From Ianthella basta (lineage: Eukaryota; Porifera; Demospongiae; Verongiida; Ianthellidae), in assembly GCA_964019415.1 (NCBI GenBank), contig OZ025879.1:4034137-4098136 (forward strand): 64,000 bases of DNA, written 5' to 3'. The position numbers and the translations under genes were made by a program. Position 1 is the stretch's first letter, and the number at the start of each line of letters is the position of its first letter. This document shows positions 12,401 to 63,425 of this stretch, one piece after another. The notes beneath the pieces were generated by a model. The model ran no database searches. It was not told the origin of the DNA and saw only the letters and a program-made list of their open reading frames with translations.

Positions 12401-15188
12401 GGCTGAATGAGCCCTACAAATAGTACAGAATGGGTTGCAGAAGATGCAACCCAGACCTCACCATGGATCATCTGGCCAAGTTCATTATTTGACCATCGTA
12501 CCACTCCCCACAAACAGGCGTGCCACCTGCACAGTTGTCAATGGGTAGGAATATGCTAGCTAACTTCCTTAAGTTGTACCCCAATCGACAGGAAGGTGCA
12601 GAAGGGCAAGGCTCAGCTGAAGTATGACCATGACAACCATGGCAGAAGAAGCAGTAATCAGTCAGGGGATTATGTATTTTCATGTAACTCTCTGCCCAGG
12701 GCGACTGGTAGGTAGTAGTATTTAGCAGCAGGCTGGGTCTGTCTCCTTCCAAATGGCACATACATGGTATGGAGGAGCACACTGAGCACATTTAGCCTCG
12801 CTTCACATCAGCTGAGGAATAAGCCAGACAAACCAGTATCATCGCGATCGGCTGAGAGGGTGGACATACCCAGCAGTCAAACCTCAAGTCAACCAAACAA
12901 CAAGCTACGGATCCCACACTGGAATTCACAAGCTCACTCACTCCCCCTTGGTGCTATCCCTCTAAGAATGACATCCCCAGTGTGGAGACAGTCTTAAAGG
13001 GAGAGAAGGAAGTGTGACCGAAGACCTGAACTGCTTACCACTGTGCCACGACTGCATAACAGAGTGTGGTAGCACTCTCTATGTAGAGATGGCCTAAAAT
13101 TGCCGCCATCCCAAAGAATAGTATAGTAGCCAAATTCACTAAATCACCACCAAGCATTACCAAATTGTACCGAGTTTGTATGGGACCAGTAAGCAAGTAA
13201 GTCAGGGCTGAGATCAGCGACGTCCGTAACTTACACGCAGCATACCAGGGAGGGGGACCAGCTGGTCCATGCAACAAGGAGGAGGGCCGGTCCATGCAAC
13301 AACCCAGGTCAACATTCATTGACTTTGAATCAGTTTTCATCATCTCTACATCTGGCAACATTTTGCCACGGCTCCTACTACTGCACAGTCTCACTTCCAG
13401 TCCCTATTTCTATGCCTGCTTACTACTGTGCAATTGCGAGTACGCAATAGCAGGGCTGTCACGTGCGACTATATACTATTGTGCACACATTCCAGCTATT
13501 CATCTACCAAGCTGCATACACCCATGTACATTAGTGCTGATGATGAAAGGCCATATAGCTAGCAATTGCAGAGCCTAGTGCACAACATGACACATATACA
13601 AGTACACTCTGATGCTGAAAGCCACTAGCTGCCTGGATATATATGGAGTTTGAACCTCACAGGAGCTGACAGTGAAGTGTACACATGTTTGTGATGGTCT
13701 AGAGCTAGCCACAAGGCCTGAACTGTAGCTTAGCTTATTGGCCTGCCATGGTACTATGGGAGAGCAAGATGCATACATAATGCTGAATATGGGCCCTGCA
13801 ACTGATACATGGAAACAAGTAAAGAATTGGAAGTCTATCTACCTTGCTCAGAACTGCCTACCTACGTATATTATGCTACTGTACTGTATAATTATGTATA
13901 ATATGTAATGCATGAGTGCATTTAAACCAGTGCATTCAAACCTTACCTCTCAAACAGTGTCTGTGTGGATGAGATGACAGGAGTGTAGAGCAAGGTGCGA
14001 CCGAGAGATTTTGTCTTCAGCTCATCAAAGTACTTTCTCCTGTCAAACATCATCCCTGCCAGTTCTCCCTCACTTGGATCCTCCAGTATGCACAACTTGC
14101 TCTCACTAGGACAAGAATCAACAGGAACTCCACCACAATCATCTCTCTCTACCACTTCAACGCTGTAGCTAGGTTGACCTCCACTTTTTCTCACAGCATC
14201 TACAAAAGCTCGTGAATTCTGAGCAAATGGACAGCAAGTGACTGAAACAGAGTGGCTGGTGTATAGTTGAAGATTAGGATGGGTTGTCATCATTTGCACA
14301 TGCAGAGGGATGTGTGTTCAGAGCTAAAAGCATGGCCAATAAGGAGGTTCAACCTCGCCCTTGGCAGCTAGTTTACAAGTCCATGGATGCTCTGTAACTT
14401 ACTGGAGATGAGCTCAGTAGGTAGGACAAGGAATAACTTGGGTTCTCTTCACTGTGGCACTGAAGATCAAGGTGTTCCAGCAGCATCCTAAGAACCTTCT
14501 TCCTTGTCAGGTGGGTCTCCTTCAGTCTCTGCAACACAGCAGGGTCACCGGTGAACTGCCTCGGATCAGGACAAAGGTCCACATATGACAGTACAACACA
14601 GCCACAGCTACTGTTACTGCTGCTCTTGTGCGCCTTGCTCAGTGCACGGATGATGGGCTCGTCTGTAGTAGGTGTGGTGCAGAGAGTGCATGTGGTAAAT
14701 TGGTTGCCACCTTCCCAGAGCAGAGACTCAGAATCGTTGGTTGGAACAGACAGGTTTGAGCACAAAGGGGCACTGGATTCCAGAAAGGGCTTGTCGCTGG
14801 CGCTCTCGCTCTGCTGCTGGCAGTGGATTACAACAACTGGATTAGCTTCTGCTGCCACTGTCGACGGAGAAGGAAAGCCGAAGGCAGTGTTGAGCTGTGG
14901 GTGCATGCTCAAGATCTTTCCTCCCCTTTCGCAGTACTTCTGTAATCGATTCACCTCGTGAGAGGCCAACTCCTCAGGACCACCTCCACTGGGAGGGGGT
15001 ACGATCACAGCCTTTGCACTCTCTTCCCACGGGGTCCGCAGCAGTTCTGTTAACGCTACAGCACGCACGGTGTACCTGTTCCGATCCAGGTAGGCGGTAA
15101 TAATTTGAACACCGTCGCTTGTCCCGTCTGTGACTACTAGGACGGTCAGGTTCGATTTGGTCTTCGACCAAGCTGTGGCAGCCATCAT
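9426..15188 (-). CDS. HLCS: Holocarboxylase synthetase / biotin protein ligase, divergent paralog A
   Basis: Attaches biotin to carboxylases through a biotinyl-AMP intermediate. Seven exons, in transcript order: 15188-14403, 14218-13947, 12124-12048, 11907-11747, 11276-11162, 11083-10825 and 9606-9426. They join in phase to 616 codons from ATG to TAA. The N half is a BPL_N-like domain (VIVPPPSGGGPEEL). The catalytic half carries QTKGKGRHGTVWVSP, KWPDDIYY, VGGILV and GVGVNVTN, and the last exon is a biotin-ligase C-terminal domain. Compared with paralog B, the GRGR loop is GKGR, the usual KWPND is KWPDD, and the C domain is divergent. R118-equivalent is kept. Exons 1, 2 and 6 are near copies of paralog B while 3, 4, 5 and 7 are not. 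A Ser run in exon 6 comes from an expanded (GGA)n tract. Possibly altered activity; both copies look intact. Confidence 0.88.
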
Positions 15189-15283
15189 GAATTACCAATT
15201 ACCTCAAACACGACCAGTCATTCTAGCTAGCAATGCTATACGTATACGATCGCGAGAAAATTCAGTCATGCATATAATATTCA

Positions 15284-18200
15284 TCAACCTAATCTCTTGG
15301 CTTTGATTAGACCTCTCATGAGATCAAAACTGTTCCCGTCTGGCTGCAGCTGAATGCATCCACCTGATTCCTCTTGCACCACAAGATAGCCATGCTTGTC
15401 AATTCCTGTGATGGATACCACCTCACCTGTAGAGTCCAGTGTCACCATATTGTGGGGCTCACTATGCAGAGAGGAGTAGACAATAACACTATCAAAGGGA
15501 AGCACCAGGAGTGAGAGGTGCACACTTGGGTGTATACAGCAAGAAGACACGGCACATGGGTTCACCATGAGGATGCTGCATTTATGAACACTGCTGTAGT
15601 CACTGCATGTACCCACCTGTGCATCCAGTACTGGTAGTACAGTTTACAGAAGAGGCTGTCCTCCAGTGGGCGTGTAGAAAGGGTCTTCTCCAAGTCCTGT
15701 AGTAACACTTCCATTGTGTTGAGTATGGCAGCAAGCAGGTGCTCTTGGGAGATGAGCTCCAGTTGGTGGGAGGAGGAGGATGAGGAGAGGACCGCATTGT
15801 GCATGTTGATACAGTCAGCCAGAGACAAGGTGGGATACTTGTTGGTCACATTCACACCAACTCCTGTGTAAAGAGGATACATATGTATAGCTGTTGTGGA
15901 AGCTCATTTCTACCTCTGTGTAATATAATTCCTTGATACTAGCTTCAAGTGGTTTTGTTTGTGACAGCTGATGATGGCCCTAGTGCACGTGGTTGAATGT
16001 CTTACTTGATTGTTTCCTGTAACTACAACTGTACACTTGCATCAAATTATTAGGGGAAATTAGATATGCTAATAATACTTAGTTCTAAGTGCATATGAGA
16101 CTTGGATAGTCACTCAGGCAGCTGCCTTGTTAGCCGTTGCAGACAGCATCATTTGTGAGCAGCGCACATGATATGTACTTACCCACCTTGTGATAGTCCA
16201 GCTAGTACAGTCCCGGCTCACCTACTATGGTCAACTTGTCACTGCCCAATGTAAGGCAGCTAACCAAGATTCCACCCAGTTTGGTTTGTTGTCCATAATA
16301 GACGTCATTTGGCCATTTTACACGAAGATCAAAGTCCTACAAAGAGTGCCAGCATATCACTACACCAATAACGCACGAAAACATAATCTGCTAATAATTA
16401 ATAAATGTCTACAACTGTAAATTTATGGCTCAATTCCTTGCATGCACAACAGATAGCACATTTAAACAGGTACAAGCAAGCACAGACATGCATGCACACA
16501 CACACACACACACACAAGACACCAATGTGCAAGTACCTCATATCCTCTCCTTGCTCTCACAGCATGCACCACAGATGTGGCTGCAACATGCTGAAGAATA
16601 CTAATACAGGGGTTCAGTGTGGAAGATGAGGTCAGTTTCAATGGCACAGAGAACATCAGACACCCTTCAGGGGACAACCACATGTTGCCACTGCGACCTG
16701 CACCCATGGAACAATAGGCTCTGCTGTGATGATGTCTCAGGTAACTGCCTAGCTTGCACAGCATGCCTGCTGGATCAAACCAGGCCATTGGGCAGCCCTA
16801 CATACCTCTCCCTTTTGTTTGACGGCCAGCAACAGAGAGCAATCCAACATCACTTGGCAAGTTAAAGACAAGCTGTGCATTCCTATAAATAAGTGAAATG
16901 AACAACAGTATCCTGGTAAATAGTACAGTACTGTGGGACTGATGATTACTCTCTGGCCATAACACATCCCATGCCATTATGGTTGAAGTAAGCTACCAAC
17001 TGAAATTCCTTCTACACACATCCATTGTTATTACTCTAGCAGTAAGTGGGTATCTTCAGGATAATGTGGACAGTTGACAGAAGAACTGGCTCAAAATTAT
17101 CATCACTCACGCTTACATCGGATGTCTCTCACATCCAGTCTTGCCAGAGCTTACCTCTCAAACAGTGTCTGTGTGGATGAGATGACAGGAGTGTAGAGCA
17201 AGGTGCGACCGAGAGATTTTGTCTTCAGCTCATCAAAGTACTTTCTCCTGTCAAACATCATCCCTGCCAGTTCTCCCTCACTTGGATCCTCCAGTATGCA
17301 CAACTTGCTCTCATTAGGGCAAGAATCAACAGGAACTCCACCACAATCATCTCTCTCTACCACTTCAACGCTGTAGCTAGGTTGACCTCCACTTCTTCTC
17401 ACAGCATCTACAAAAGCTCGTGAATTCTGAGCAAATGGACAACAAGTGACTGAAGCAGAGTGGCTGGTGTATAGTTGAAGATTAGGACGGGTTGTCACTA
17501 CTCAAGCAACTACTGACCCAATTGCTTTAGAAACATGTACAACCTCATGTCAATATCCTCACAACTACTCTTGAAGAGGAAAATGTAGCATGGTGTGTGA
17601 AATTAAACACATGGCCAATAAGGAGGTTCAACCTCGCCCTTGGCAGCTAGTTTACAAGTCCATGGATGCTCTGTAACTTACTGGAGATGAGCTCAGTATG
17701 TAGGACAAGGAGTGGCCTGGGTTCTCTCCACTGCGGCACTGAAGATCAAGTTGTTCTAGCAGCATCCTAAGCACCTTCTCTCTTGCCCCATGAGTCTCCT
17801 TCAGTCTCTGCAACACAGCAGGGTCACTGGTGAACTGCCTCAAATCAGGACAAAGGTCCACATATGACAGTACAGCACAGCTGCTGCTACTGCTACTGCT
17901 GCTCTTGCTCAGTGCACGGATGATGGGCTCGTCTGTACATCTATGGTCTGTAGTAGGCGTGGTGCAGAGAGTGCATGTGGTAAATTGGTTGCCACCTTCC
18001 CAGAGTAGAGAGTCAGATTCGTTGGTTGGAACAGACAGGTTTGAGCACAAAGGGGCACTGGATTCCAGAAAGGGCTCGTCTCTCTCGCTCTGCTGCTGGC
18101 AGTGGATTACAACAACTGGATTAGCTTCTGCTGCCACTATCGACGGAGAAGGAAAGCCGAAGGCAGTGTTGAGCTGTGGATGCATGCTCAGGATCTTTCC

Positions 18201-18455
18201 TCCCCTTTCGCAGTACCTCTGTAATCGATCCACCTCGTGAGAAGCCAACTCCTCAGGACCACCTCCACTGGGAGGGGGTACGATCACAGCCTTTGCACTC
18301 TCCTCCCACGGGCTTCGTAGCAGTTCCGTCAGAGCCACGTTACACACGGTGTACCTGTCTCGATGCAGGAAGGAGGCAACGCTGTCTCTAGCGATGACGC
18401 TCCTCCCATCTGTGGCCAGAAGCACGAGCACATCCAGGAGTTTCGAAGAGGACAT
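15284..18455 (-). CDS. HLCS: Holocarboxylase synthetase / biotin protein ligase, paralog B
   Basis: Same enzyme family and exon structure as the copy at 9.4-15.2 kb, lying 95 bp upstream of its start codon in tandem. Seven exons, in transcript order: 18455-17682, 17426-17155, 16882-16806, 16697-16537, 16336-16222, 15863-15617 and 15461-15284. They join in phase to 607 codons ending TGA. The biotin-binding loop QTKGRGRSGNMWLSP, the KWPNDVYY motif, LGGILV and GVGVNVTN are all canonical. The C-terminal domain has the expected 'PDGNSFDLMRGLI' ending. This copy is the better candidate for the conserved enzyme. Its start codon faces CACYBP head-to-head at 254 bp. A (CA)n tract lies in the intron near 16500. 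Confidence 0.9.
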
Positions 18456-18709
18456 CGTTCAACTCGACAGTTCCGACAAGTTCCGACAACTGTGGTGTTG
18501 CGTAACAAGTCAGAGTTGAGGGAATTCCCTTTTTGGAACACGTGCCTCCATACCTCGCTAAGCCTCCCTTGCCCTACACGGTATGCGTGTTTGAGGGATT
18601 GCAAGCCACTACAGCGATATCTCCGAAGTGCCTTTTTGCCCATTAGTGTTTATTCTGTAATCTTTACTCCCTTACCTCACGAAAAGGCAGGCACCGGCCT
18701 TGGACGCAA
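18456..18709. promoter_or_regulatory. Bidirectional promoter region between HLCS-B and CACYBP
   Basis: 254 bp separates the two divergent start codons, so both promoters and 5' UTRs must lie here or inside the genes. No TATA box is obvious. Inferred from layout only. Confidence 0.5.
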
Positions 18710-31881: not shown

Positions 31882-45097
<13,216 letters not shown>

Positions 45098-48229: not shown

Positions 48230-51200
48230 ATGGACGATCACAAGAAGAAGGCCCTGCGGCAGTGTCATCTCGAGCTCAGGACTGGAATAATAGTCAGTCA
48301 CTTTCTACCGGATCTACACAGCCATGCTGGAGGGTTCCTTACGGATATGGAATTCGCTGGCATTTCCGCCAAAAAGGCAACGGGCAATGTTGACCAGGTT
48401 GATGAATTGATAGATATCCTTTTGAGGAAAGAGAATAAAGATTTTCAGTACTTCTGCGTTATCTTGGAGAAACACGGCTGTCAAGCTTGGTCGAACAAAC
48501 TGAAAGTCGCTGCAGGTCTCGGTAAGTAAGCTACCACTGAGTCTGTCACAGCTACGTAGTCTACGAAGCGAATCCATGCCTCCGGGGTTATATCTGCTAC
48601 CTGGTCTCGTTCCCAGACCCACCTCCGCCGTTCCGCTATTTCTATTCAACAGACCCTTCCTCCGCCCCCCCCCCCCCTCCTAATTAAAAATGGCGGAACG
48701 GCGGAGGTGGGTCTGGGAACGAGACTATCTGCTACCTAGTCTCGTTCCCAGACCCACCTCTGTTGTTCTGCTATTTCTATTTAAAAGGGTGGCAAAGGGA
48801 GGGTCTGGTAACAGCCATACCATTTCTGTACCTGGGAGGTGGAGTCGTCGATGAAGAAACGCGTTATAACGTGTATAACCGCATAACCACCTCTTGTGTA
48901 CGCGTAGGAGATGGCGTCGTGATCTGCAGCATCTTTGTCAGTGGAGACCTGTTGGGTGTGTGGGCAAACTCCCAGCGTCAAGAACAGAAGGCCGCCCAAT
49001 TCCCCAATGTATCGTATGCTTTCGCCATGAAGACATGGTCAGAACTGTGTTATTACGTGTTACAATAGCGTTCTGCGATCTGATTGGTCACGCCAGGATT
49101 TAGGCGCAGGTACAGAAACGGAGAAACGGTATGGCAATGTTGCCAGACCCTTCCTCCACTCCCCCTTCTAATTCAAAATGGTGGAATGGCGGAGGTGGGT
49201 CTGGGAACGAGACTATCTGCTCCCCCCTCCCCAAAGAAAACATGCCAATTACAGAGAAAACAGTAGCAGAAATTTGATTTCCACTTCTCAGATTGCCATA
49301 TTCAATTTCATAAAGTCTACATCCAAAATTTTCTGGGGGGGGGGGAGCATAACCCCAAATCCTCCTTTGAGGCTTATTTTTAATTCCAGTAACTGGACGG
49401 CCATTTCATGGCTATTGGTCCAGCAATTGGTCACGTGAGATGCATGGTTACACGTGGGAACGCACTTCGTGATTTACTGGGAGCTCTCCATCGAATGTGA
49501 ACTCAACTCAAGAAGTGCAATTATAAAGTGCATCTATAGCTATATGCTACTCCTAGGTATATCCCTGCAGCGTGTGATCAAAATTCTGACTATTGCTGCT
49601 GGATAATCCAGTAGCTCACTAATGTGTTTCCCAAATCCCGAAGTGTAGCTGTAACCATGCGTTTGTTTCCCAATCGAAACAACTTGCAATTGGCAATGTA
49701 CACTAAGACCTGCACCTTGTGAAGTATACATGCAGTGAACCTTTCTCAGGCATGCCCTTGTTGCTTGCTAGCTACAAACAAGGCAGCACTTAATGCAATT
49801 ACAAAATGGATCTTGTGCGGCTGATTCCTCCTGTGAATAATCCAGTTGATGTATTACAGCTGGATCCTCCAAACCATCCATCGTGAAGGATGCAGTGAGC
49901 AGTGGCTCTATGGGCGGGGCACTGTGCGATGTGAACAGGCTAGAAAGTCTTCCATTTTACAGCCACCTGACACCAAGTGTAATCATGCATCTGATTGGTG
50001 CTTGTGATCATTGCCGCTCATGTGACCAATTGCCGGACCAATAGCCGTGAAATGGCCATCCGGTTACCGGACCAATAGCCACGGGGATTATTATATTTTT
50101 GAGCACTACCAAGAGTGCTACATATCCTCAATAGTCCCCTGCCTTCATATGTGTATAGCATAATTTATGTGAAATTTATGAGCAACCAAACAGAAAAGGT
50201 CTGATTGTGGTTGGCTGTGAGGGAAGAATTGGAAGTGCAAAGTTGACTGTGTCTTGTGTAATGGCTGTTTGATGGTGGGATCAATGTGGCATGAAACACT
50301 GTAGTTGGAAGTTGTCGCCGTGTGTTGCTTGTCGTACTTTTCCTGCCCTACCACAGACATATCAGTGGAGGATAAACTGAGACTTAAACTGGAAGATACA
50401 CAAAAGAGGTAAAACGTCCTGCATACTCCTATGTACTGTAACTAATGCTTCCAAATGTGATGAAGTGCCCAAAGGCCCTTGAGTCTGGCTTGTTAAGAAT
50501 CTGTGTTGCCCAACTGTACATCCAGTACACTTGTATTGTATTGTATTCATTGTTTTTTGTGATTAATACACTGTAGTATTCAACAAACACATGCACAGGC
50601 AACATATGTAGTCTAAGGTGGTTGGCTCAGAAAGATGTGTACCTATTTTATGTATTTGGGCCGTCACCATACGTAGCTACACTGTAACTAACTGGTGCTT
50701 GACCCACCAGCATACAGCATACTATGTAGAGCATACCTTTTTCAGAGACAAACTGGCTCTGAGTTTCAGTGGTGTATTTGTAAAGCCTTTATTAATGTGG
50801 TTGTGCTCCTGTGGCCAGTTCTTGCCTTCATCATCTTTCATGCATTTGCGCAAAACAGCTCAGTTTCTGCTGTGCTCCTCAAGCTGTGATTTGATCTCTT
50901 ATTTGTGCTCACAACCTGCCACGTCTGCTCCACCATTGCTCAACACAATACTGCAAGGGCATTTTGGAAGCAGGGCTGCCCATCAACTTATCCTCCATGT
51001 ACTGCAGCAAGTCAGTAAGGAGCAGGTAGATAGTAGATGGTGGATAAGGCTTTCTGCAGTAGTCCTGGTTTCAGATGCAAATCTAGAGAGCCTCTGGCAC
51101 AGAACACTAGGATTGTTGGATAAAGTGGATTGTCACAGCATGTTTCCTGTTTCACCTTCATACACACTTCCCACCAAACTGCAAACTTCCTTAATTCCCA

Positions 51201-54200
51201 GTTTGTTCTTCTCTCTGTGCTGATTGGCTTGCGTCCTTCCTATGTAACCTTTAGAAGCCATGTCTTTTAACTTGTTGATCCCACCAAGGCAGGAGTAAGA
51301 AGCCTGGTACAGGGTGTATACCACTTACTGTATTGCATGGTGCTGAGGTGTATGTAGGGATTTTCTAGGCACTCACCCTTCGGCACTTCACACCATTCGG
51401 GGGGCTCATGCCTTCATAGGAAATCCTTGTGCACCTCAGTGCCAAGAGATAACTGATAACATACAGCATCACTGAAAGCTTCTCGTTTTGTTGTCCACTG
51501 GTGGCTGGTTTGAGATATCTCAGGTCATTTTGCTAAGATGTCATACAATCTACACGTATCCAGTGTGTGCTTGTGTTCGTTCTTTGCTAGTGATGCCATC
51601 ATCAATCACTGTGTACATCTGTTGTAACTTTTGATATAAATGATATTGATCTATTTTACATGCAGTCATGTATAGCAGACACAATGCTCTTATCCTGGCA
51701 ATGTTCAGTGGTGGCACAAGCAATGCACTGAAAGTGTTATAATTGTATGTTATGCATGTATAGAGGGCATGTCTGAAGGGCTATTGTCAGTGGTAGCTGT
51801 GGATTCAGTCTTTTAAGCAATTTCAGTATGTTTTCACTCAGTGCAGTATATAGATTATTTTATACTATTCAACTTAGGTATGAGACGTTGCAAAGACTGT
51901 ATCAGGAAGCATGTCACAACAGGGACCAGTTTAAAGCACAACTACCTTGCTATCAATATGAGTTAGTGCATGTATAATTTCATGATTAGTGAATATGCTA
52001 ATATTTCATAATGTGATGCTTTACTAAGTGGTTAAGGCATGTTCTTTTGCTCCCATCTACCTCAGATGTGCTGTGCTAGCACAGAAGAACAAAGAACTGC
52101 AGTGTGAATTTGATCAGTGCAAAGAACAACTGCCTAAGTATCAGGAAAGGTTATTGATGATATGGGTTTATATTGCAGTGAATGAGCTGTTACTTGCTGT
52201 AAATACTGTAGTGATCGGTTGTTAAGCGTATGCACTTCTACCTCTGGCAGGATAAAAATATGCACCTAATAAAGGATATATATGCACTTAACATACGAAT
52301 GAGTCACGAAAATATAATTATGTACAAACATCATATTAAGATGGCCACCACATAGTGCAGTGAGTTCTAATTTAAATGCTACTATACACGTTTATAGTCA
52401 TTACCACACTTCAGGCAAGTGGCTAGGCTACCAGGGAGTCCTTGTATGCCTTTAATAGAAGGGGTGAATCCCTGAAATCACTAGGTGCCTAACCAGTATG
52501 ATGATAAAATGGTAAAGAATTTTGCACTTAACAGTGGATATGTGCTTATAAGGAGGGTGCACTTAAGAACTGATCAGTACGGTATTATACTTGTATACCG
52601 CAAGTAATGTCTTTGTTACCTGGTCATGTGACACATGAAATGCAGTGACAGGAGGGCAAATCTGATGCCATGGTAACTGTCAAAATGGGGTGTACTATGT
52701 AGGCGAATAGTTTGTGGGCAATACGTAGCAGATTATTCAACAACTGAATGCAGGACGTTTCGGCCCGAAGGCCTTCGTCAGCTGCGTACAAAACTGAGGG
52801 TGGGGTGTACTAAATGATATGTATAATGTCTGCCATAAATTTAGCATGTAATATATGAATTGATGGCATCCGGCTTAATACCCTACTTGGTGGAAGAATG
52901 CTCCACAGCTGAATGTCTTCTTAGGCTTTAGGGGTGGGGACCATTCAGTGGCGAACTTTACTCCATGACCTTTACTGTGCCCCTTTCGCACACTTGGAGA
53001 TACAGCCCACGCCCCATAGTGTGTGTGGTCCCCCAGGCCATACTATTATGGCTATTGAGGCTGTTGTTTTTCACTTGGTCCGACAGTGTATTGGATGCAA
53101 CATGCTATATTGTGCACATACACATGCATAGTCATGGTCAACTGTCAGCAGCAGGGTGTTCTGCACTCTGCTAAACATTATTCAAAGTTATCATTCCGTT
53201 TCTTTCTCAGTCTCCCTCTTCCTCTTCTTCCCTCCATCTCACTTTTGTACACTCTCCTGACTAGTCTCTCTGTTCCCATCTCTGTCAAGGCTTCTCTCCA
53301 TCTCACTTGTCTCCTTTACACTTTCTCTGCTTCCCTGCTTCCCTGCTCCAGTACATGGCCAGCTCTATGCTGCTGTATTGCCCTATAACGAGTCACCTGC
53401 AGTTCATAGATGAGGTTGTTGGCCGAGTCAAACACTTGTCCAGCTAGGCCAGTGGGTGGTCTTTATTAAGTTAAATTGGCCAAGACTTGCATTCCTGAAA
53501 TGTTGTTGCTGCTTAGCTGTCCATATTTGCTTGGTAATAGATAATTCTGTTGAGTTACTGGCTAATGAAGTGCCACTTGCATTCATTCATTTATACTCTC
53601 CCACATAGTGGCAAGAAATGTGCATGTGTGTATGACAGTTTAACACAGATCAGTCAAAGCTACATTGTATTTTGTGTATGCCCAATGCTTGCACCTTAGC
53701 AGTCCTTGTTAAGTTCAGGCATGCACACAGAGTAGAATGCATCTTGAACCATCTTGAGTGAGTATAAATAGTGGTAGCTGTAGATGCAGTCTTTTAAGCA
53801 ATATAGTCTGTTTTCACTTAATGCAGTATATAGATTATTTTATACTATTCAACTTAGGTACCTGTCAAAGACCTTCATGGTTGAAACATCATACCATTAT
53901 TTTTGCATCTGTCTGCTACGTGATTGCTCATTTTCACTACTGATCATGTTCATCAGTACATGCAGTATCATTCCACCAGACCACCATTTCCTCTTACTCT
54001 GCCTCTGAAAGGATTTTGGGAAATTGGAGTTCAAGATTTATGTTGGACTGAGTAACACAGTGGCTTTGAGTAGATTCACATACAGATCATGTACTATGAG
54101 CACTGCATCTGTTACTGTGCTTAATGTGTAGGCTCACTCAGTTACAACACAAGAATTCAGAGTTACAGGAGAGGTGCAGAGATAAAGAGGGTGAGGTGAG

Positions 54201-54346
54201 CTGTGTGTGTGTGTCTGTGCACCAGGTGGGACACATGCTCTTTCTGACAATGTACATGCATATAGTATTATGTTACTTGTTTGTGTTATTCTTTGGAGCA
54301 GTTGGAACAGTTCAAGATTAAACACGCCAACTGTGATGTCACCAAG
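48230..54346 (+). CDS. CARD plus coiled-coil protein (CARD9/CARD11-like N-terminal architecture), 3' incomplete
   Basis: Exons 48230-48521, 50357-50408, 51878-51961, 52066-52149, 54132-54195 and 54302-54346 join in phase to 207 codons without a stop. Exon 1 encodes a CARD-type death-fold of about 95 residues (AGGFLTDMEFAGISAKKATG, VDELIDILLRKENKDF). The following exons form a coiled coil with heptad leucines (VEDKLRLKLEDTQKR, YETLQRLYQEACHNRDQ, LAQKNKELQCEFDQCK, LTQLQHKNSELQERC). CARD followed by long coils is the layout of CARD9/10/11/14, scaffolds that assemble BCL10 in innate immune signalling; orthology is inference. The last recognised exon ends in phase 0 with a strong gtgagt donor, directly upstream of the 207-bp array. 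Downstream exons, if any, were not found in the window. Confidence 0.72.
48601..48727. mobile_element. Short foldback MITE, copy 1, in CARD gene intron 1
   Basis: About 38-bp inverted termini (tctcgttcccagacccacct... inverted as aggtgggtctgggaacgaga) enclose a C-rich centre of about 50 bp. It could fold into one long hairpin. Confidence 0.75.
48738..49215. mobile_element. Related MITE, copy 2, next to copy 1
   Basis: Same termini (agtctcgttcccagaccc and gggtctgggaacgagact), with a ~400-bp interior that has no recognised gene. 'tatctgct' flanks copy 1 on both sides and copy 2 on its right, so the two share a target duplication of about 8-10 bp, pointing to a hAT or Mutator-like origin. Confidence 0.7.
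49388..50068. mobile_element. Third inverted-repeat element in CARD gene intron 1
   Basis: The left terminus gtaactggacggccatttc, followed by ggctattggtccagcaattg, is inverted at 50017-50068. That gives about 50-bp imperfect terminal repeats around ~580 bp of non-coding sequence. Confidence 0.65.
50409..51877. other. CARD gene intron 2, no other gene seen
   Basis: Broken short frames only. Near 51345-51445 a 'ctgaggtg ... cacctcag' inverted pair frames a ~100-bp hairpin-like segment of unknown origin. Confidence 0.4.
52750..52785 (-). ncRNA. Hammerhead-ribozyme-like motif, likely a Penelope-element remnant
   Basis: On the minus strand the order is GCAG, CTGACGA, a GGCC-ttcg-GGCC hairpin, GAAAC, GTC, CTGC. 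The outer GCAG/CTGC pair as helix I, the two GGCC pair as helix II, and CUGANGA and GAAA are the conserved hammerhead core. GTC is a legal cleavage triplet. Helix III is almost absent, as reported for ribozymes in Penelope-like retroelements. One extra A after CTGACGA makes helix II imperfect, so activity is uncertain. Confidence 0.4.
53775..53860 (+). repeat. Duplicate of the CARD gene exon-3 acceptor region
   Basis: About 85 bp closely matches 51793-51880, the 3' end of intron 2 including ttatactattcaacttag|gta. The duplicated 3' splice site lies in a later intron and is not followed by coiled-coil coding sequence. Confidence 0.75.
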
Positions 54347-54672
54347 GTGAGTGCAGTATGGTAAATACCTGACTGTGCTGGACTGTTCAACTATGTTTTG
54401 CAGTTTTGACATCCAGATGCATGTGCAAATGGTTAGTCAGTTTATGAGTACGTAGTTCAGGGGTTTGTATTACACTGCTTGTCTGCATATGCTTTGACAC
54501 TTTGTGTTACTGTATGCTTAGTAAGAGTCACACCATGATATTGATTCCTCCACAAATTCAATTTCATGCTATCATTTGTAGCTGTCTTTGTTCTCATTAG
54601 AGATTAGACTTATTGTGCATATTGTGACTGTGGTTGATGTGTGTTGCTGCATTCTCCTTTCTTCCACCTCAG

Positions 54673-57600
54673 AGGGTGAGTCCTGACCTTTTCACCTATC
54701 CTAATGTTTTGTGTAATTGCTGATAACTGTTGTCTCTTTCTCCTCCTCGCACTTTGGAAAACATGGAACATGGCAGGTGAGTTTGTAGCAAACACACTAT
54801 CTCCTATGGAGTTATTGCAATGCGGCTGTGTTTGATGTGTATTGCTGTATTCTCCTTTCTTCCACCTCAGCTGGTGAGTCCTACCCTTTTCACCTGTTCT
54901 GATGATTTGTGCTGTGGCAGTAATTACTATTGACTATTGTCTCTTTCTCCTCCTCACTCTTGGGAACACATGAAACATGGCAGGTGAGTTTGTAGCAAAC
55001 ACACTATCTCCTATGGAGTTATTGCAATGTGGCTGTGTTTGATGTGTGTTGCTGTACGTATTCTCCTTTCTTCCACCTCAGACGGTGAGTCCTGACCTTT
55101 TCACCTATCCTAATTTTTGTGTAATTGCTGATAGCAGTTGTCTCTTTCTCCTCCTTGCTCTTTGAAAAACATGGAACATGGCAGGTGAGTTTGTAGCAAA
55201 CACACTATCTCCTATGGAGTTATTGTGATGTATGATTTGATAGAGGCTCATAGCTGTGTCCCTCAATCAATCATGTGAAATGGTGAGCATTACTGTAGCT
55301 TCAATAGCACAAGTTGAAGAGAATCTGCACCACACTGAACATCCATACTGTCTTCACAGCTGCATGCACCCTGAATCGAACACTCATGAAGGTAAAGAAT
55401 TGTGTACAAACTCTGTGTGTAGGAGAAGAAGAAGGCCGTAGTGTATCAGGTGCCTTGTAAAAACTGCTGCAAACTCTACATGGGAGAATCCATAAGGACC
55501 CTCAAAGTCAGACTAGCTGAACGCACAAGAGCAGTGCAGAAGATTGATGCGAACAATGGGATTGCAGTGAATGTGGCTGACACCAACCACAGTAGTGCAT
55601 GGGCTAATGCAAAGGTGGCGAAGAAAATACTAAGGTACTGGGAGAGAATAACCACAGAAGCCATCCTAATCAATAAGAGTCAAAAGTCAATGAACTTTGG
55701 ACAGTGGCCTCTTACTCCCTGGTCTTTGCAACTCTATTTTACTGAACACACCCTGATTGCCACACCCACCTAATGGCAATGTCACCTAAATGTTTTTCCA
55801 CACCCCCTTGGTTATTCAATTTGCTGTTTATTCAATTAATGCCATTGGAGTGCCTCATGTTTATTCAATTAACTTTCTAACACCTTATGTTCAAACATCA
55901 ACACCTGTCACCTGCTGTCATCTGTTCTTGTATTTAAGCCAGCCACTCACTACATCTCTTGCACTGTGTTGAAACGTCCTCCTTCCACCTTGTGCTATTG
56001 AAGCTGCAGTATTGCTCACCATTCCATATGAATTATTGTGATATTGCTGTGGTTGATGTGTGTTGCTGTATTCTCCTTTCTTCAACTGCAGGAGGTGAGT
56101 CCTACCCTTTTCACCTGTTCAGTGTTTGTGCAGTAATAGTAATTGCTTATGACTATTATCTCTTTCTCCACCTCACTCTTGGGAACACATGAAACATGGC
56201 AGGTGAGTTTGTAGCAAACACACTATCTCCTATGGAGTTATTGCAATGCGGCTGTGTTTGATGTGTGTTGCTGTATTCTCCTTTCTTCCACCTCAGGAGG
56301 TGAGTCCTACCCATTTCATCTGTTGTAATGATTTGTGCTGTGGCAGTAATGGGTAATGACTATTGTCTCTTTCTCCTCCTCACTCTTGGGAACACATGAA
56401 ACATGGCAGGTGAGTTTGTAGCAAACACACTATCTCCTATGGAGTTATTGTAATGTGGCTGTGTTTGATGTGTGTTGCTGTATTCTCCTTTCTTCCACCT
56501 CAGAGGGTGAGTCCTACCCTTTTGACCTGTTGTAATGATTTGTGCTGTGGCAGTAATTGCTAATGACTATCGTCTCTTTCTCCTCCTTACTCTTGGGAAC
56601 ACATGAAACATGGCAGGTGAGTTTGTAGCAAACACACTATCTCCTATGGAGTTATTGCAATGCGGCTGTGTTTGATGTGTGTTGCTGTATTCTCCTTTCT
56701 TCCACCTCAGGCGGTGAGTCCTACCCTTTCACCTGTTATAATGATTTGTGCAGTGATAGTAATTGCTTATGACTATTATCTCTTTCTCCACCTCACTCTT
56801 GGGAACACATGAAACATGGCAGGTGAGTTTGTAGCAAACACACTATCTCCTATGGAGTTATTGCAATGCGGCTGTGTTTGATGTGTGTTGCTGTATTCTC
56901 CTTTCTTCCACCTCAGGAGGTGAGTCCTACCCATTTCATCTGTTGTAATGATTTGTGCTGTGGCAGTAATGGGTAATGACTATTGTCTCTTTCTCCTCCT
57001 CACTCTTGGGAACACATGAAACATGGCAGGTGAGTTTGTAGCAAACTCACTATCTCCTATGGAGTTATTGTAATGCGGCTGTGTTTGATGTGTGTTGCTG
57101 TATTCTCCTTTCTTCCACCTCAGTTTGTGAGTCCTACCCATTTCACCTGTTGTAATGATTTGTGCTGTGGCAGTAATTGGTAATGACTATTGTCTCTTTC
57201 TCCTCCTCACTCTTGGGAACACATGAAACATGGCAGGTGAGTTTGTAGCAAACACACTATCACCTATGGAGTTATTGCAATGCGGCTGTGTTTGATGTGT
57301 GTTGCTGTATTCTCCTTTCTTCCACCTCAGATGGTGAGTCCTACCCTTTCACCTGTTATAATGATTTGTGCTGTGGCAGTAATTGCTATTGACTATCGTC
57401 TCTTTCTCCACCTCACTCTTGGAAACACATGAAACATGGCAGGTGAGTTTGTAGCAAACACACTATCTCCTATGGAGTTATTGCAATGCGGCTGTGTTTG
57501 ATGTGTGTTGCTGTATTCTCCTTTCTTCCACCTCAGAAGGTGAGTCCTACCCATTTCATCTGTTGTAATGATTTGTGCTGTGGCAGTAATGGGTAATGAC

Positions 57601-60600
57601 TATTGTCTCTTTCTCCTCCTCACTCTTGGGAACACATGAAACATGGCAGGTGAGTTTGTAGCAAACTCACTATCTCCTATGGAGTTATTGTAATGCGGCT
57701 GTGTTTGATGTGTGTTGCTGTATTCTCCTTCCTTCCACCTCAGCCGGTGAGTCCTACCCTTTTGACCTGTTCTAATGATTTGTGCTGTGGCAGTAATTGC
57801 TAATGACTATTGTCTCTTTCTCCTCCTCACTCTTGGGAACACATGAAACATGGCAGGTGAGTTTGTAGCAAACTCACTATCTCCTATGGAGTTATTGTAA
57901 TGCGGCTGTGTTTGATGTGTGTTGCTGTATTCTCCTTCCTTCCACCTCAGCCGGTGAGTCCTACCCTTTTGACCTGTTCTAATGATTTGTGCTGTGGCAG
58001 TAATTGCTAATGACTATTGTCTCTTTCTCCTCCTCACTCTTGGGAACACATGAAACATGGCAGGTGAGTTTGTAGCAAACTCACTATCTCCTATGGAGTT
58101 ATTGTAATGCGGCTGTGTTTGATGTGTGTTGCTGTATTCTCCTTTCTTCCACCTCAGGCGGTGAGTCCTACCCATTTCACCTGTTGTAATGATTTGTGCT
58201 GTGGCAGTAATTGGTAATGACTATTGTCTCTTTCTCCTCCTCACTCTTGGGAACACATGAAACATGGCAGGTGAGTTTGTAGCAAACTCACTATCTCCTA
58301 TGGAGTTATTGTAATGCGGCTGTGTTTGATGTGTGTTGCTGTATTCTCCTTTCTTCCACCTCAGTTTGTGAGTCCTACCCATTTCACCTGTTGTAATGAT
58401 TTGTGCTGTGGCAGTAATTGGTAATGACTATTGTCTCTTTCTCCTCCTCACTCTTGGGAACACATGAAACATGGCAGGTGAGTTTGTAGCAAACACACTA
58501 TCACCTATGGAGTTATTGCAATGCGGCTGTGTTTGATGTGTGTTGCTGTATTCTCCTTTCTTCCACCTCAGTTGGTGAGTCCTACCCTTTCACCTGTTAT
58601 AATGATTTGTGCTGTGGCAGTAATTGGTAATGACTATTGTATCTTTCTCCTCCTCACTCTTGGGAACACATGAAACATGGCAGGTGAGTTTGTAGCAAAC
58701 ACACTATCTCCTATGGAGTTATTGCAATGCGGCTGTGTTTGATGTGTGTTGCTGTATTCTCCTTTCTTCCACCTCAGGAGGTGAGTCCTACCCATTTCAT
58801 CTGTTGTAATGATTTGTGCTGTGGCAGTAATTGGTAATGACTATTGTCTCTTTCTCCTCCTCACTCTTGGGAACACATGAAACATGGCAGGTGAGTTTGT
58901 AGCAAACACACTATCACCTATGGAGTTATTGCAATGCGGCTGTGTTTGATGTGTGTTGCTGTATTCTCCTTTCTTCCACCTCAGATGGTGAGTCCTACCC
59001 TTTCACCTGTTATAATGATTTGTGCTGTGGCAGTAATTGCTATTGACTATCGTCTCTTTCTCCACCTCACTCTTGGAAACACATGAAACATGGCAGGTGA
59101 GTTTGTAGCAAACACACTATCTCCTATGGAGTTATTGCAATGCGGCTGTGTTTGATGTGTGTTGCTGTATTCTCCTTTCTTCCACCTCAGAAGGTGAGTC
59201 CTACCCATTTCATCTGTTGTAATGATTTGTGCTGTGGCAGTAATGGGTAATGACTATTGTCTCTTTCTCCTCCTCACTCTTGGGAACACATGAAACATGG
59301 CAGGTGAGTTTGTAGCAAACTCACTATCTCCTATGGAGTTATTGTAATGCGGCTGTGTTTGATGTGTGTTGCTGTATTCTCCTTCCTTCCACCTCAGCCG
59401 GTGAGTCCTACCCTTTTGACCTGTTCTAATGATTTGTGCTGTGGCAGTAATTGCTAATGACTATTGTCTCTTTCTCCTCCTCACTCTTGGGAACACATGA
59501 AACATGGCAGGTGAGTTTGTAGCAAACTCACTATCTCCTATGGAGTTATTGTAATGCGGCTGTGTTTGATGTGTGTTGCTGTATTCTCCTTCCTTCCACC
59601 TCAGCCGGTGAGTCCTACCCTTTTGACCTGTTCTAATGATTTGTGCTGTGGCAGTAATTGCTAATGACTATTGTCTCTTTCTCCTCCTCACTCTTGGGAA
59701 CACATGAAACATGGCAGGTGAGTTTGTAGCAAACTCACTATCTCCTATGGAGTTATTGTAATGCGGCTGTGTTTGATGTGTGTTGCTGTATTCTCCTTTC
59801 TTCCACCTCAGGCGGTGAGTCCTACCCATTTCACCTGTTGTAATGATTTGTGCTGTGGCAGTAATTGGTAATGACTATTGTCTCTTTCTCCTCCTCACTC
59901 TTGGGAACACATGAAACATGGCAGGTGAGTTTGTAGCAAACACACTATCACCTATGGAGTAATTGCAATGTGGCTGTGTTTGATGTGTGTTGCTGTATTC
60001 TCCTTCCTTCCACCTCAGCCGGTGAGTCCTACCCTTTTGACCTGTTCTAATGATTTGTGCTGTGGCAGTAATTGCTAATGACTATTGTCTCTTTCTCCTC
60101 CTCACTCTTGGGAACACATGAAACATGGCAGGTGAGTTTGTAGCAAACTCACTATCTCCTATGGAGTTATTGTAATGCGGCTGTGTTTGATGTGTGTTGC
60201 TGTATTCTCCTTTCTTCCACCTCAGGAGGTGAGTCCTACCCATTTCACCTGTTGTAATGATTTGTGCTGTGGCAGTAATTGGTAATGACTATTGTCTCTT
60301 TCTCCTCCTCACTCTTGGGAACACATGAAACATGGCAGGTGAGTTTGTAGCAAACACACTATCACCTATGGAGTAATTGCAATGTGGCTGTGTTTGATGT
60401 GTGTTGCTGTATTCTCCTTCCTTCCACCTCAGCCGGTGAGTCCTACCCTTTTGACCTGTTGTAATGATTTGTGCTGTGGCAGTAATTGGTAATGACTATC
60501 GTCTCTTTCTCCTCCTCACTCTTGGGAACACATGAAACATGGCAGGTGAGTTTGTAGCAAACACACTATCACCTATGGAGTAATTGCAATGCGGCTGTGT

Positions 60601-62720
60601 TTGATGTGTGTTGCTGTATTCTCCTTTCTTCCACCTCAGACGGTGAGTCCTACCCTTTTCACCTGTTGTAATGATTTGTGCTGAGGCAGTAATTGCTAAT
60701 GACTATTGTATCTTTCTCCTCCTCACTCTTTGGAACACATGAAACATGGCAGGTGAGTTTGTAGCAAACACACTATCTCCTATGGAGTAATTGCAATGTG
60801 GCTGTGTTTGATGTGTGTTGCTGTATTCTCCTTCCTTCCACCTCAGCCGGTGAGTCCTACCCTTTTGACCTGTTCTAATGATTTGTGCTGTGGCAGTAAT
60901 TGCTAATGACTATCGTCTCTTTCTCCTCCTCACTCTTGGGAACACACGAAACATGGCAGGTGAGTTTGTAGCAAACACACTATCTCCTATGGAGTTATTG
61001 CAATGCGGCTGTGTTTGATGTGTGTTGCTGTATTCTCCTTTCTTCCACCTCAGTTGGTGAGTCCTACCCTTTTCACCTGTTGTAATGATTTGTGCTGTGG
61101 CAGTAATTGGTAATGACTATTGTATCTTTCTCCACCTCACTCTTGGGAACACATGAAACATGGCAGGTGAGTTTGTAGCAAACACACTATCTCCTATGGA
61201 GTTATTGCAATGCAGCTGTGTTTGATGTGTGTTGCTGTACGTATTCTCCTTTCTTCCACCTCAGTGGGTGAGTCCTACCCTTTTCACCTGTTGTAATGAT
61301 TTGTGCTGTGGCAGTAATTGCTAATGACTATCGTCTCTTTCTCCTCCTCACTCTTGGGAACACATGAAACATGGCAGGTGAGTGTGTAGCAAACACACAA
61401 TCTCCTATGGAGTTATTGCAATGCGGCTGTGTTTGATGTGTGTTGCTGTATTCTCCTTTCTTCCACCTCAGATGGTGAGTCCTACCCTTTTCACCTGTTG
61501 TAATGATTTGTGCTGTGGCAGTAATTGCTATTGACTATCGTCTCTTTCTCCACCTCACTCTTGGAAACACATGAAACATGGCAGGTGAGTTTGTAGCAAA
61601 CACACTATCTCCTATGGAGTTATTGCAATGCGGCTGTGTTTGATGTGTGTTGCTGTATTCTCCTTTCTTCCACCTCAGCTGGTGAGTCCTACCCTTTTCA
61701 CCTGTTGTAATGATTTGTGCTGTGGCAGTAATTGCTAATGACTATCGTCTCTTTCTCCTCCTCACTTTTGGTAACACATGAAACATGGCAGGTGAGTTTG
61801 TAGCAAACACACTATCTCCTATGGAGTTATTGTAATGCGGCTGTGTTTGATGTGTGTTGCTGTATTCTCCTTTCTTCCACCTCAGTTGGTGAGTCCTACC
61901 CTTTTCACCTGTTGTAATGATTTGTGCTGTGGCAGTAATTGGTAATGACTATTGTATCTTTCTCCTCCTCACTCTTTGGAACACATGAAACATGGCAGGT
62001 GAGTTTGTAGCAAACACACTATCTCCTATGGAGTTATTGCAATGCGGCTGTGTTTGATGTGTGTTGCTGTACGTATTCTCCTTTCTTCCACCTCAGTTTG
62101 TGAGTCCTACCCTTTTCACCTGTTGTAATGATTTGTGCTGTGGCAGTAATTGCTAATGACTATCGTCTCTTTCTCCACCTCACTCTTGGGAACACATGAA
62201 ACATGGCAGGTGAGTTTGTAGCAAACACACTAACTCCTATGGAGTTATTGCAATGCGGCTGTGTTTGATGTGTGTTGCTGTATTCTCCTTCCTTCCACCT
62301 CAGCCGGTGAGTCCTACCCTTTTCACCTGTTGTAATGATTTGTGCTGTGGCAGTAATTGCTAATGACTATCATCTCTTTCTCCTCCTCACTCTTGGGAAC
62401 ACATGAAACATGGCAGGTGAGTGTGTAGCAAACACACAATCTCCTATGGAGTTATTGCAATGCGGCTGTGTTTGATGTGTGTTGCTGTATTCTCCTTTCT
62501 TCCACCTCAGATGGTGAGTCCTACCCTTTTCACCTGTTGTAATGATTTGTGCTGTGGCAGTAATTGCTATTGACTATCGTCTCTTTCTCCACCTCACTCT
62601 TGGAAACACATGAAACATGGCAGGTGAGTTTGTAGCAAACACACTATCTCCTATGGAGTTATTGCAATGCGGCTGTGTTTGATGTGTGTTGCTGTATTCT
62701 CCTTTCTTCCACCTCAGGGG
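54673..62720 (+). other. 36 candidate 3-nt microexons (one per array unit)
   Basis: Triplets between cctcag and gtgagt, by start: 54673 AGG, 54871 CTG, 55082 ACG, 56092 GAG, 56297 GAG, 56504 AGG, 56711 GCG, 56917 GAG, 57124 TTT, 57331 ATG, 57537 AAG, 57744 CCG, 57951 CCG, 58158 GCG, 58365 TTT, 58572 TTG, 58778 GAG, 58985 ATG, 59191 AAG, 59398 CCG, 59605 CCG, 59812 GCG, 60019 CCG, 60226 GAG, 60433 CCG, 60640 ACG, 60847 CCG, 61054 TTG, 61265 TGG, 61472 ATG, 61679 CTG, 61886 TTG, 62097 TTT, 62304 CCG, 62511 ATG, 62718 GGG. Twelve triplets encode R, L, T, E, A, F, M, K, P, W and G, with no stop. The third base is G except in TTT, matching donor position -1. The preceding exon ends in phase 0, so inclusion would be in frame. 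Splicing use is inferred, not shown. Confidence 0.4.
55228..56040 (+). mobile_element. Penelope-like retroelement fragment inserted in the array
   Basis: A plus-strand frame at about 55437-55773 reads VYQVPCKNCCKLYMGESIRT with following RLAERTRAV, then a glutamate- and lysine-rich stretch ending TMNFG-like. That is the GIY-YIG endonuclease domain of Penelope-like elements, with 'YMG' where 'YIG' is usual. A tail 'tatttaagcc' and GAAACGTCC at 55971-55979 resembles the element's ribozyme-bearing terminus. Reverse transcriptase is absent, so this is a truncated copy. Confidence 0.65.
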
Positions 62721-62747
62721 GTGAGTCCTACCCTTTTCACCTATCCT

Positions 62748-63425
62748 GCATTAGCCAGCTAATGCAACTTTATATCACACCTATGAAGTTCTGTGCCTAC
62801 ATACCGATCATTGATACAGAAAAGTACACAACATGCTCAAAAGCCTAAGTAGAAGAAAGAACGGAGCTCAGTCAAGCCCTGGACAGAGAGTGATTGGACT
62901 AAAATGTGATAAGGCATGCCTAATAACAGTTAGTCATGATTACATGGGTACTGTCATGCATACACACTTTATATAACTATGTGTATATAAATGACATTCA
63001 ACATTAGTTTCCATCGATTCCTTATCAATTGACCACCCTGCCTTGCTGTTACTTCTTATGCTATTAGTATTCTTCTATTCCTTTACATCTTCCTTGTGTA
63101 AGGATCACCCAATGAATTAATGGAACTTGTGCACCTGAACATGATGTGCATGTATGAAGTTTGAAATAATTCTACTGCACATATCAACCAGTTTAGTTTA
63201 CGTGCCTGATATCCACTCCTCTACCTCCAATATGTAATATGTGGTGTGCACCAACCAGTGACTGGACATGATTTTGTACAATTGATTCAATTTGTTCATT
63301 AGAGTCAAATATGATTTCAGGTACGTACCATATAACTTTTAGTCACTTTATGCTACATATAGGATTATAGAGACTTGCCAGCCTACTGTCTATTTTAGCC
63401 AATCATTAATAATTATCAGAAAGTT
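62748..63425. other. Stretch after the array with no supported gene
   Basis: AT-rich with short frames. A weak exon-like segment at about 63302-63319 is followed by gtacgt but has no family support. Confidence 0.4.

Follow-up and report, generated by a model that had tools for sequence, protein, structure and literature searches.

In a stretch of 64,000 nucleotides from the sponge Ianthella basta (GenBank assembly GCA_964019415.1, contig OZ025879.1, positions 4,034,137 to 4,098,136 of the forward strand; hereafter the window, numbered from its first letter), a gene with a predicted CARD domain is followed by a tandem array of 36 candidate exons of three nucleotides each. We propose, with moderate confidence, that the 3′ coding part of this gene consists of single-codon exons that would be joined serially by recursive splicing into a fast-evolving protein tail. 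The case is built on genomic sequence: the layout of the splice sites, their phase, the absence of stop codons, the excess variation of the triplets, conservation between paralogues and the gene family to which the arrays belong. From these we infer that the sites are spliced, that they are spliced in serial order, and whatever function the product may have.

The array in the window

A tandem repeat finder and a splice-site pattern were used to delimit the array, which occupies positions 54621 to 62747 of the plus strand. It contains 36 units, mostly of 207 bp, with 36 exon sites of three nucleotides (sites A) and 35 putative relay sites of zero length (sites B). An initial annotation of this DNA had listed 36 three-nucleotide candidate microexons here, and the same number was recovered: at each, a pyrimidine tract runs into an acceptor (cctcag in 35 units, ctgcag in one), which is followed by three bases and the donor gtgagt. 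The first site A, flanked by cctcag and gtgagt, is AGG (54673 to 54675) and the last is GGG (62718 to 62720). As had also been stated, all 36 triplets are sense codons. CCG occurs 8 times, GAG 5 times, ATG 4 times, GCG, TTT and TTG 3 times each, AGG, CTG, ACG and AAG twice each, and TGG and GGG once each. The spacing of the units is 207 bp in 25 of 35 cases and 198–211 bp in the remainder, with the single exception of units 3 and 4, which lie 1010 bp apart.

Between consecutive triplets lies a second splice-like pair, ggcag|gtgagt, with no nucleotide between acceptor and donor (n = 35; in the first copy the donor is at 54777 to 54782, plus strand). An acceptor followed directly by a donor is the hallmark of recursive splice sites. 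The candidate introns measure 100–110 nt from a triplet to the zero-length site and 94–98 nt from there to the following triplet. One exceptional intron of 907 nt holds inserted DNA of ~800 bp between units 3 and 4 (55236 to 56030, plus strand), whose boundaries are approximate. An open reading frame (ORF) of 116 amino acids within the insert (55423–55773) matched no Pfam family. We presume, with no support from Pfam, that it resembles the GIY-YIG end of a Penelope-like element.

Two other ways of translating the array were tried and rejected. On the minus strand frames are open for ~204 nt, and the triplet would be a codon there as well. An antisense protein was nevertheless rejected because repeat lengths differ between arrays (the commonest are 207, 202, 201, 200, 213 and 214 bp) and also within them, so that no frame is continuous. 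Translation of the whole unit on the plus strand was rejected on account of in-frame stops, seen by eye.

The host gene

The candidate first coding exon (48230 to 48521, plus strand) has an ATG, shortly after which the CARD domain is encoded (MDDHKKKALRQCHLELRTGIIV...KVAAGL), and ends at the donor G|gtaagt. The ORF that contains it matches Pfam CARD_2 with E = 3.1e-7 and 30.7 bits (cut-off 28.2). Further downstream on the same strand, a candidate coiled-coil exon of 54 nt in phase 0 (LQHKNSELQERCRDKEGE; 54142 to 54195) is predicted from an open frame between cactcag and gtgagc. It is separated by an intron of 106 nt (54196–54301) from the last ordinary exon ahead of the array, which is 45 nt long and in phase 0 (LEQFKIKHANCDVTK; 54302 to 54346, plus strand). 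The other introns of the gene are longer. The translation of the last ordinary exon ends in ...CDVTK, and its donor is aag|gtgagt; the phase-0 end at 54346 given in the initial annotation was thus correct. Since the A sites are three nucleotides long and in phase 0, any number of triplets could be inserted without a frameshift, again as claimed. Beyond the array, a candidate last exon in phase 0 would encode KSTQHAQKPK followed by a stop (62820 to 62852, plus strand); the intron before it (62721–62819) would then be 99 nt long.

A family of arrays in the genome

The genome searched comprises 209 Mb in 96 contigs, the window lying on the contig denoted C12. A search with one unit returned related units on C11 and C7, and most matches were confined to the surroundings of the triplet. 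Exact matches to the pattern MCTCAGNNNGTGAGTCC number 334 in the genome (299 on the plus strand, 35 on the minus strand), and the same pattern reversed as a control does not occur in it. When 0–14 bases were allowed between the two halves of the pattern, 374 sites were found compared with 74 for the reversed control. The 14 spacings other than three thus sum to 40 sites, which is no excess. The matches listed indicate about 12 arrays, of which C3 and C7 have three each, C11 four and C12 two. Nine of these were read, the third C7 array in part; the middle array on C3, the first on C7 and the second on C12 were left out. The putative second C12 array (4154593–4167269) has six listed sites at multiples of ~207 bp. 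A lone site, CCTCAG|CCA|GTGAGTCC, lies at C8:5653013, with no other on C8 among the matches listed.

Spacings of 0–12 nt were surveyed in the nine arrays and their approaches. Nearly all sites with a pyrimidine tract had three nucleotides between acceptor and donor. The others are one site of 6 nt (C11 gene 3), one of 4 nt (C11 gene 4), and one of 12 nt and one of 0 nt in each of C11 genes 2 and 4. A 12-nt site includes C11:6712889, which was counted as 3 nt; the exon there may be 12 nt long. At C11:6743445, where the gene 3 array ends, the six bases GGGATG between acceptor and donor would make two codons in one exon.

Most units carry a second site ~100 nt after the triplet, which is either a further codon or a zero-length acceptor|donor pair. 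On C11 the second site is mostly a three-nucleotide exon too, mostly of the form NNA. The units of the second C7 array are divided, 27 having a second site of 3 nt and 23 one of 0 nt, and the length is 0 nt at every intact second site read on C12 and C3. The zero-length assignment on C7 was preferred because gtgagt is the stronger donor and the frame is kept.

The genes that carry the arrays are related. Upstream of the arrays, tblastn located the CDVTK exon in four genes on C11 and two on C3, in addition to C12. Its donor is in phase 0 in the window, and also in the four C11 genes by alignment, where it reads aag|gtaggt. In C11 genes 1–4 a conserved candidate exon of 12 nt lies between the CDVTK exon and the array; genes 1 and 3 have it as cag|AAGGAGCATGAG|gtaggt, genes 2 and 4 with the sequence ACGGAGCATGAG. 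The candidate last exon of the window bears a short resemblance, judged by eye, to that of C11 gene 3; the ends of C11 genes 1 and 2 differ from that of gene 3. The CARD matches of upstream exons on C11 and C7 fall under the Pfam cut-off, and the C7 CARD is 63% identical to the C3 CARDs. The C7 sequence examined yielded no CDVTK exon. We assign the arrays on C12, C11 and C3 to one predicted CARD/coiled-coil gene family. A second copy of the CARD, 79.7% identical over 74 residues, lies at C12:4111170-4111391, and ORFs that by eye resemble a non-long-terminal-repeat retrotransposon lie between it and the second C12 array. The zero-length sites, the dozen or so arrays, the variation focused on the triplets that is described below and the plausible last exon at 62820–62852 all go beyond the initial annotation.

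Stop codons are absent from the triplets

The nine arrays contain no stop codon in 234 A triplets, whereas 20,000 shuffles of the bases, each base kept within its position and array, give 21.4 stops on average (chance of none printed as 0.0000); the counts are not independent, as the units of an array are related. When only distinct A triplets are taken, there are 0 stops in 73, where 6.2 would be expected (P = 0.0001). Seven of the arrays have triplets that mostly end in G; in these, the eight triplets that start with TA all have T as their third base, and G is the last base in 176 of the remaining 197. Genome-wide, the 334 exact sites include no TAA or TAG and no TGA; those starting with TA are 11 TAT, with no TAC.

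Variation is concentrated in the triplets

Columns were compared among 223 units of 190–225 bp. In the window array, the first two columns of exon A rank first and second of 207, with pairwise differences of 0.77 and 0.72; the introns average 0.044. In array C3a the three exon A columns rank 1–3 of 214 (0.78–0.79, against 0.026 for introns). The three columns rank 2, 1 and 13 in C11 gene 3, 2, 4 and 3 in C3b, 3, 2 and 11 in C7b, 6, 1 and 7 in C7c, 7, 3 and 83 in C11 gene 4, and 23, 4 and 73 in C11 gene 2. The top two ranks in C11 genes 1, 2 and 4 are taken by exon B columns. When each unit was compared with its nearest neighbour as judged by the introns, exon A differed at 142 of 483 positions and introns at 543 of 32,426, a 17.6-fold difference; the ratio for single arrays ranges from 3.2 (C11 gene 2) to 55.5 (C3a). 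Exon B differed at 99 of 342 positions, 17.3-fold over introns, and on C11 only at 57 of 189 compared with 318 of 12,387 for introns.

We infer that this diversity comes from selection rather than from local hypermutation. If the codons are real and a local mutator were aimed at the triplet, selection on the protein would not be needed, and such a mutator would account for triplets that change far faster than introns, at all three positions on C3. We consider this quite unlikely. The third base of the triplet varies little in the window and in C11 genes 1, 2 and 4. Moreover, triplets were left intact when blocks of several units were copied (ATG AAG CCG CCG GCG is present twice in the window array), so the triplets are not altered at every copying, and the absence of stops indicates selection at least against stops. 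The constant bases beside the triplet are no argument against a mutator, since the units were found by them.

Single-codon sites outside the arrays

C11 genes 2 and 4 share a stretch of 5.3 kb ahead of their arrays that is 91.9% identical. In gene 2 this stretch contains 14 sites consisting of an acceptor, three bases and GTRAG, nine of them with a clear pyrimidine tract, and gene 4 retains every one of the 14. No change is seen in their 126 splice-site bases, where ~10 would be expected at 91.9% identity. The two changes found at the 14 sites are both within triplets. No three-nucleotide site is present on the minus strand of the stretch, and spacings of 1, 2 and 4 to 9 nt yield 0 to 2 sites each. 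Gene 2 also has four zero-length sites, of which two are preserved in gene 4 as aligned. Twelve sites of gene 2, of 3 or 0 nt, form a chain at distances of 79–121 nt. Judged by eye from their flanks, these units have diverged from each other far more than array units have, so that candidate single-codon exons exist beyond fresh tandem repeats.

These observations bear on one alternative, an unused intronic minisatellite with splice-like motifs that arose by accident. Tandem repeats do expand without function. A silent repeat, however, would leave unexplained the 334 stop-free sites, the variation focused on the triplet, the spacing of three nucleotides, and the 14 of 14 sites outside arrays that are kept between paralogues, and we regard it as highly improbable. 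Taken from the sequence, the lack of stops, the ~17-fold variation and the conservation between paralogues support the view that the triplets are real, translated exons in phase 0. In this respect the microexon interpretation of the initial annotation is supported; its leaning towards the choice of one unit is not.

Proposed serial splicing and its alternatives

The initial annotation favoured the use of one unit per transcript. A single array codon, or none, would then be included in each mRNA, as with mutually exclusive exons. The frame would be kept with any number of triplets, the triplets are diverse, and sites only 3 nt apart are expected to hinder each other sterically, given the size of the spliceosome. 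In contrast, such a choice gives no role to the 35 zero-length sites of the window or to the second codon sites on C11 and C7. Reaching a distant unit would need introns of kilobases when neighbouring sites are ~100 nt away, and a bank in which CCG makes up 8 of 36 entries is redundant. The choice of one unit is therefore less likely than serial joining, and we judge it unlikely overall. We favour serial joining because the introns of 94–110 nt are close to the 106 nt of the ordinary intron just upstream, because of the zero-length relays, and because a similar chain exists outside the repeats; the same points leave the preference for one unit unsupported. The most plausible role of zero-length sites placed between codons is that of relays by which splicing could run through the whole series.

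Under serial joining, which is the simplest reading, the spliceosome would excise short introns of ~95–110 nt in succession. Each step at a site A would add one codon to the mRNA and leave a donor, NNG|gtgagt, from which the following step could start; a step at a zero-length site B would add nothing and serve only to renew the donor. The mRNA would then continue into the short last exon, and the resulting protein tail would have ~36 residues here and up to ~80 in sister genes. The clash between acceptor and donor might be avoided by stepwise splicing, or by pairing an acceptor with the donor one site further on. The next donor, ~100 nt 3′ of each acceptor, could act as the boundary of a short downstream cryptic exon. 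Units would multiply by tandem duplication with a gain of one or two residues per unit. Codons would diversify by positive selection, and introns would be near-identical through recent duplication.

Read serially, the arrays examined give peptides free of stops, such as SKMQLMLMEHARERELEQERERELEQERLLEQEAHMRERELLFDQFKQDQLKQAQFKEALAAQAQFKEALAKEREMRA for C7b and RLTEERAEFMKPPAFLEMKPPAPEPTPLWMLLFPMG for the window. The serial C7 peptides contain no glycine or proline in 119 residues, and their composition suits a helix. A coiled-coil reading of the C7 peptide, attractive by composition, was not supported by a test of periodicity and was dropped.

Several points weigh against serial joining or against the data on which it is built. 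An acceptor and a donor 3 nt apart cannot be occupied simultaneously, and to our knowledge there is no precedent for dozens of such successive steps. The lack of glycine and proline in the C7 peptides is not significant when distinct codons are counted (P ~0.34 and ~0.40), and their helical periodicity does not rise above that of shuffled peptides (reached in 1957 of 2000 and 446 of 2000 shuffles), which leaves no evidence for serial order from this source. Because copies are related, the figures for stops and TAT overstate the number of independent events, and the corresponding stop test for exon B (0 of 74, with 0.33 expected) has no power. The exon A columns of C11 gene 1 reach no higher than ranks 13, 5 and 33 of 201. 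C11 also has gaps of 401, 429 and 341 bp, which amount to at least three units lacking a regular A site, as well as a few B sites without an intact donor. Broken units are under-counted since units were found through the splice-site pattern. Finally, 25 zero-length B sites on C7 could alternatively be 4-nt exons before gtgaga, which would break the frame.

Recursive splicing might also proceed with frequent skipping, so that each transcript receives its own ordered subset of codons and very many tails arise. All subsets of the window codons would be in frame and free of stops, and near-identical sites could compete equally. Nothing in the sequence, however, demands variability from one mRNA to another, and a constant serial tail would equally give codon diversity between units. 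We give this combinatorial use a modest chance. The same holds for its broader form, a splicing-based diversity generator in which hundreds of single-codon exons would give a tail specific to the CARD protein, the cell or the individual; this is unlikely though far from negligible, and such a generator might possibly serve immune or self/non-self recognition. Returning to serial joining, CARD domains suggest signalling in defence or cell death, and from this we would guess at a role of the variable tail in recognition or assembly.

Other features of the window

An N-terminal exon of a biotin-protein ligase is present in two copies on the minus strand, at 14373–15191 and 17652–18458. The first copy matches BPL_N with E = 3.1e-7 and the second is alike by eye. 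At 33283–34088 a 35-bp tandem repeat of 23 copies lies upstream of ORFs with P-loops, and there are weak AAA matches at 36691–36975. A scan of the window against Rfam returned no family at gathering scores.

Significance and comparison with known systems

These arrays would take the exon to its logical limit of one codon per exon, in long series and in about a dozen arrays. Provided that the sites are spliced serially, they bear on how the spliceosome handles an acceptor and a donor that cannot be bound together, and they would offer dozens of natural replicates for tests of recursive splicing. Single codons that vary amid near-identical introns form an unusually clean signature, either of diversifying selection or of a mutator directed at exons. 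Should the tails act in recognition, they would represent a new route to receptor diversity in an organism that has received little study. Coding sequence of this kind is probably missed by standard annotation and by read aligners.

In the literature searched, outside of which lie all preprints and most subscription papers, we recognised no array of single-codon exons and no excess variation confined to such exons. The initial annotation knew of no described system with this layout, which agrees with this outcome. As no matching description was found in that literature, we rate the layout as new. Its ingredients are known, namely 3-nt exons, a 1-nt exon, micro-exon genes (MEGs) and zero-length ratchet points.

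The MEGs of schistosomes have exons of 3–81 bp and long introns of up to 5 kbp, and encode secreted proteins (PMC10526429). Like them, the present genes are made of very short exons: many predicted exons are very short and symmetric, as the definition of MEGs has it (36 sites in the window and 334 in the genome), with few of other lengths. They differ in that the array exons measure 3 nt, in rare cases 6 or 12 nt, or 0 nt, the gene starts with a CARD domain, and the introns, instead of being long, are tandemly repeated and of 94–110 nt, apart from the one of 907 nt with its insert.

Exons of 3 nt are present in mouse Ncam and Drosophila TnT (PMC8042270). For the 1-nt exon of Arabidopsis APC11, intron definition and recursive splicing have been proposed (PMC4674806), and plant microexons of 1–15 nt include two adjacent ones in rice (PMC8831610). 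These cases indicate that exons as short as ours can be spliced. They are, however, isolated tiny exons in ordinary genes; arrays and variation focused on the exon, as seen here, are not noted in the available text of these papers.

Drosophila ratchet points are zero-nucleotide acceptor/donor sites that renew the 5′ splice site, and are now thought to depend on a short downstream cryptic exon (PMC8605326). As in ratchet points, the acceptor here abuts the donor. Most ratchet points are found in long introns, and they usually contribute no nucleotides to the mRNA, whereas the present sites occur about every 100 nt, and every first one or every one of them would add a codon.

Dscam-type exons encode parts of immunoglobulin domains, and one exon is chosen per set. 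The arthropod arrays of this type consist of tandemly duplicated, diverged exons of one gene (PMC6851185). The sponge arrays are likewise made of duplicated and diverged exons, but each exon would hold one codon. A further likeness is offered, as an analogy only, by the repeats of transcription activator-like (TAL) effectors. Those repeats are near-identical except for a hypervariable pair of positions, and the whole repeat is translated; in the arrays described here, translation would be limited to the variable triplet.

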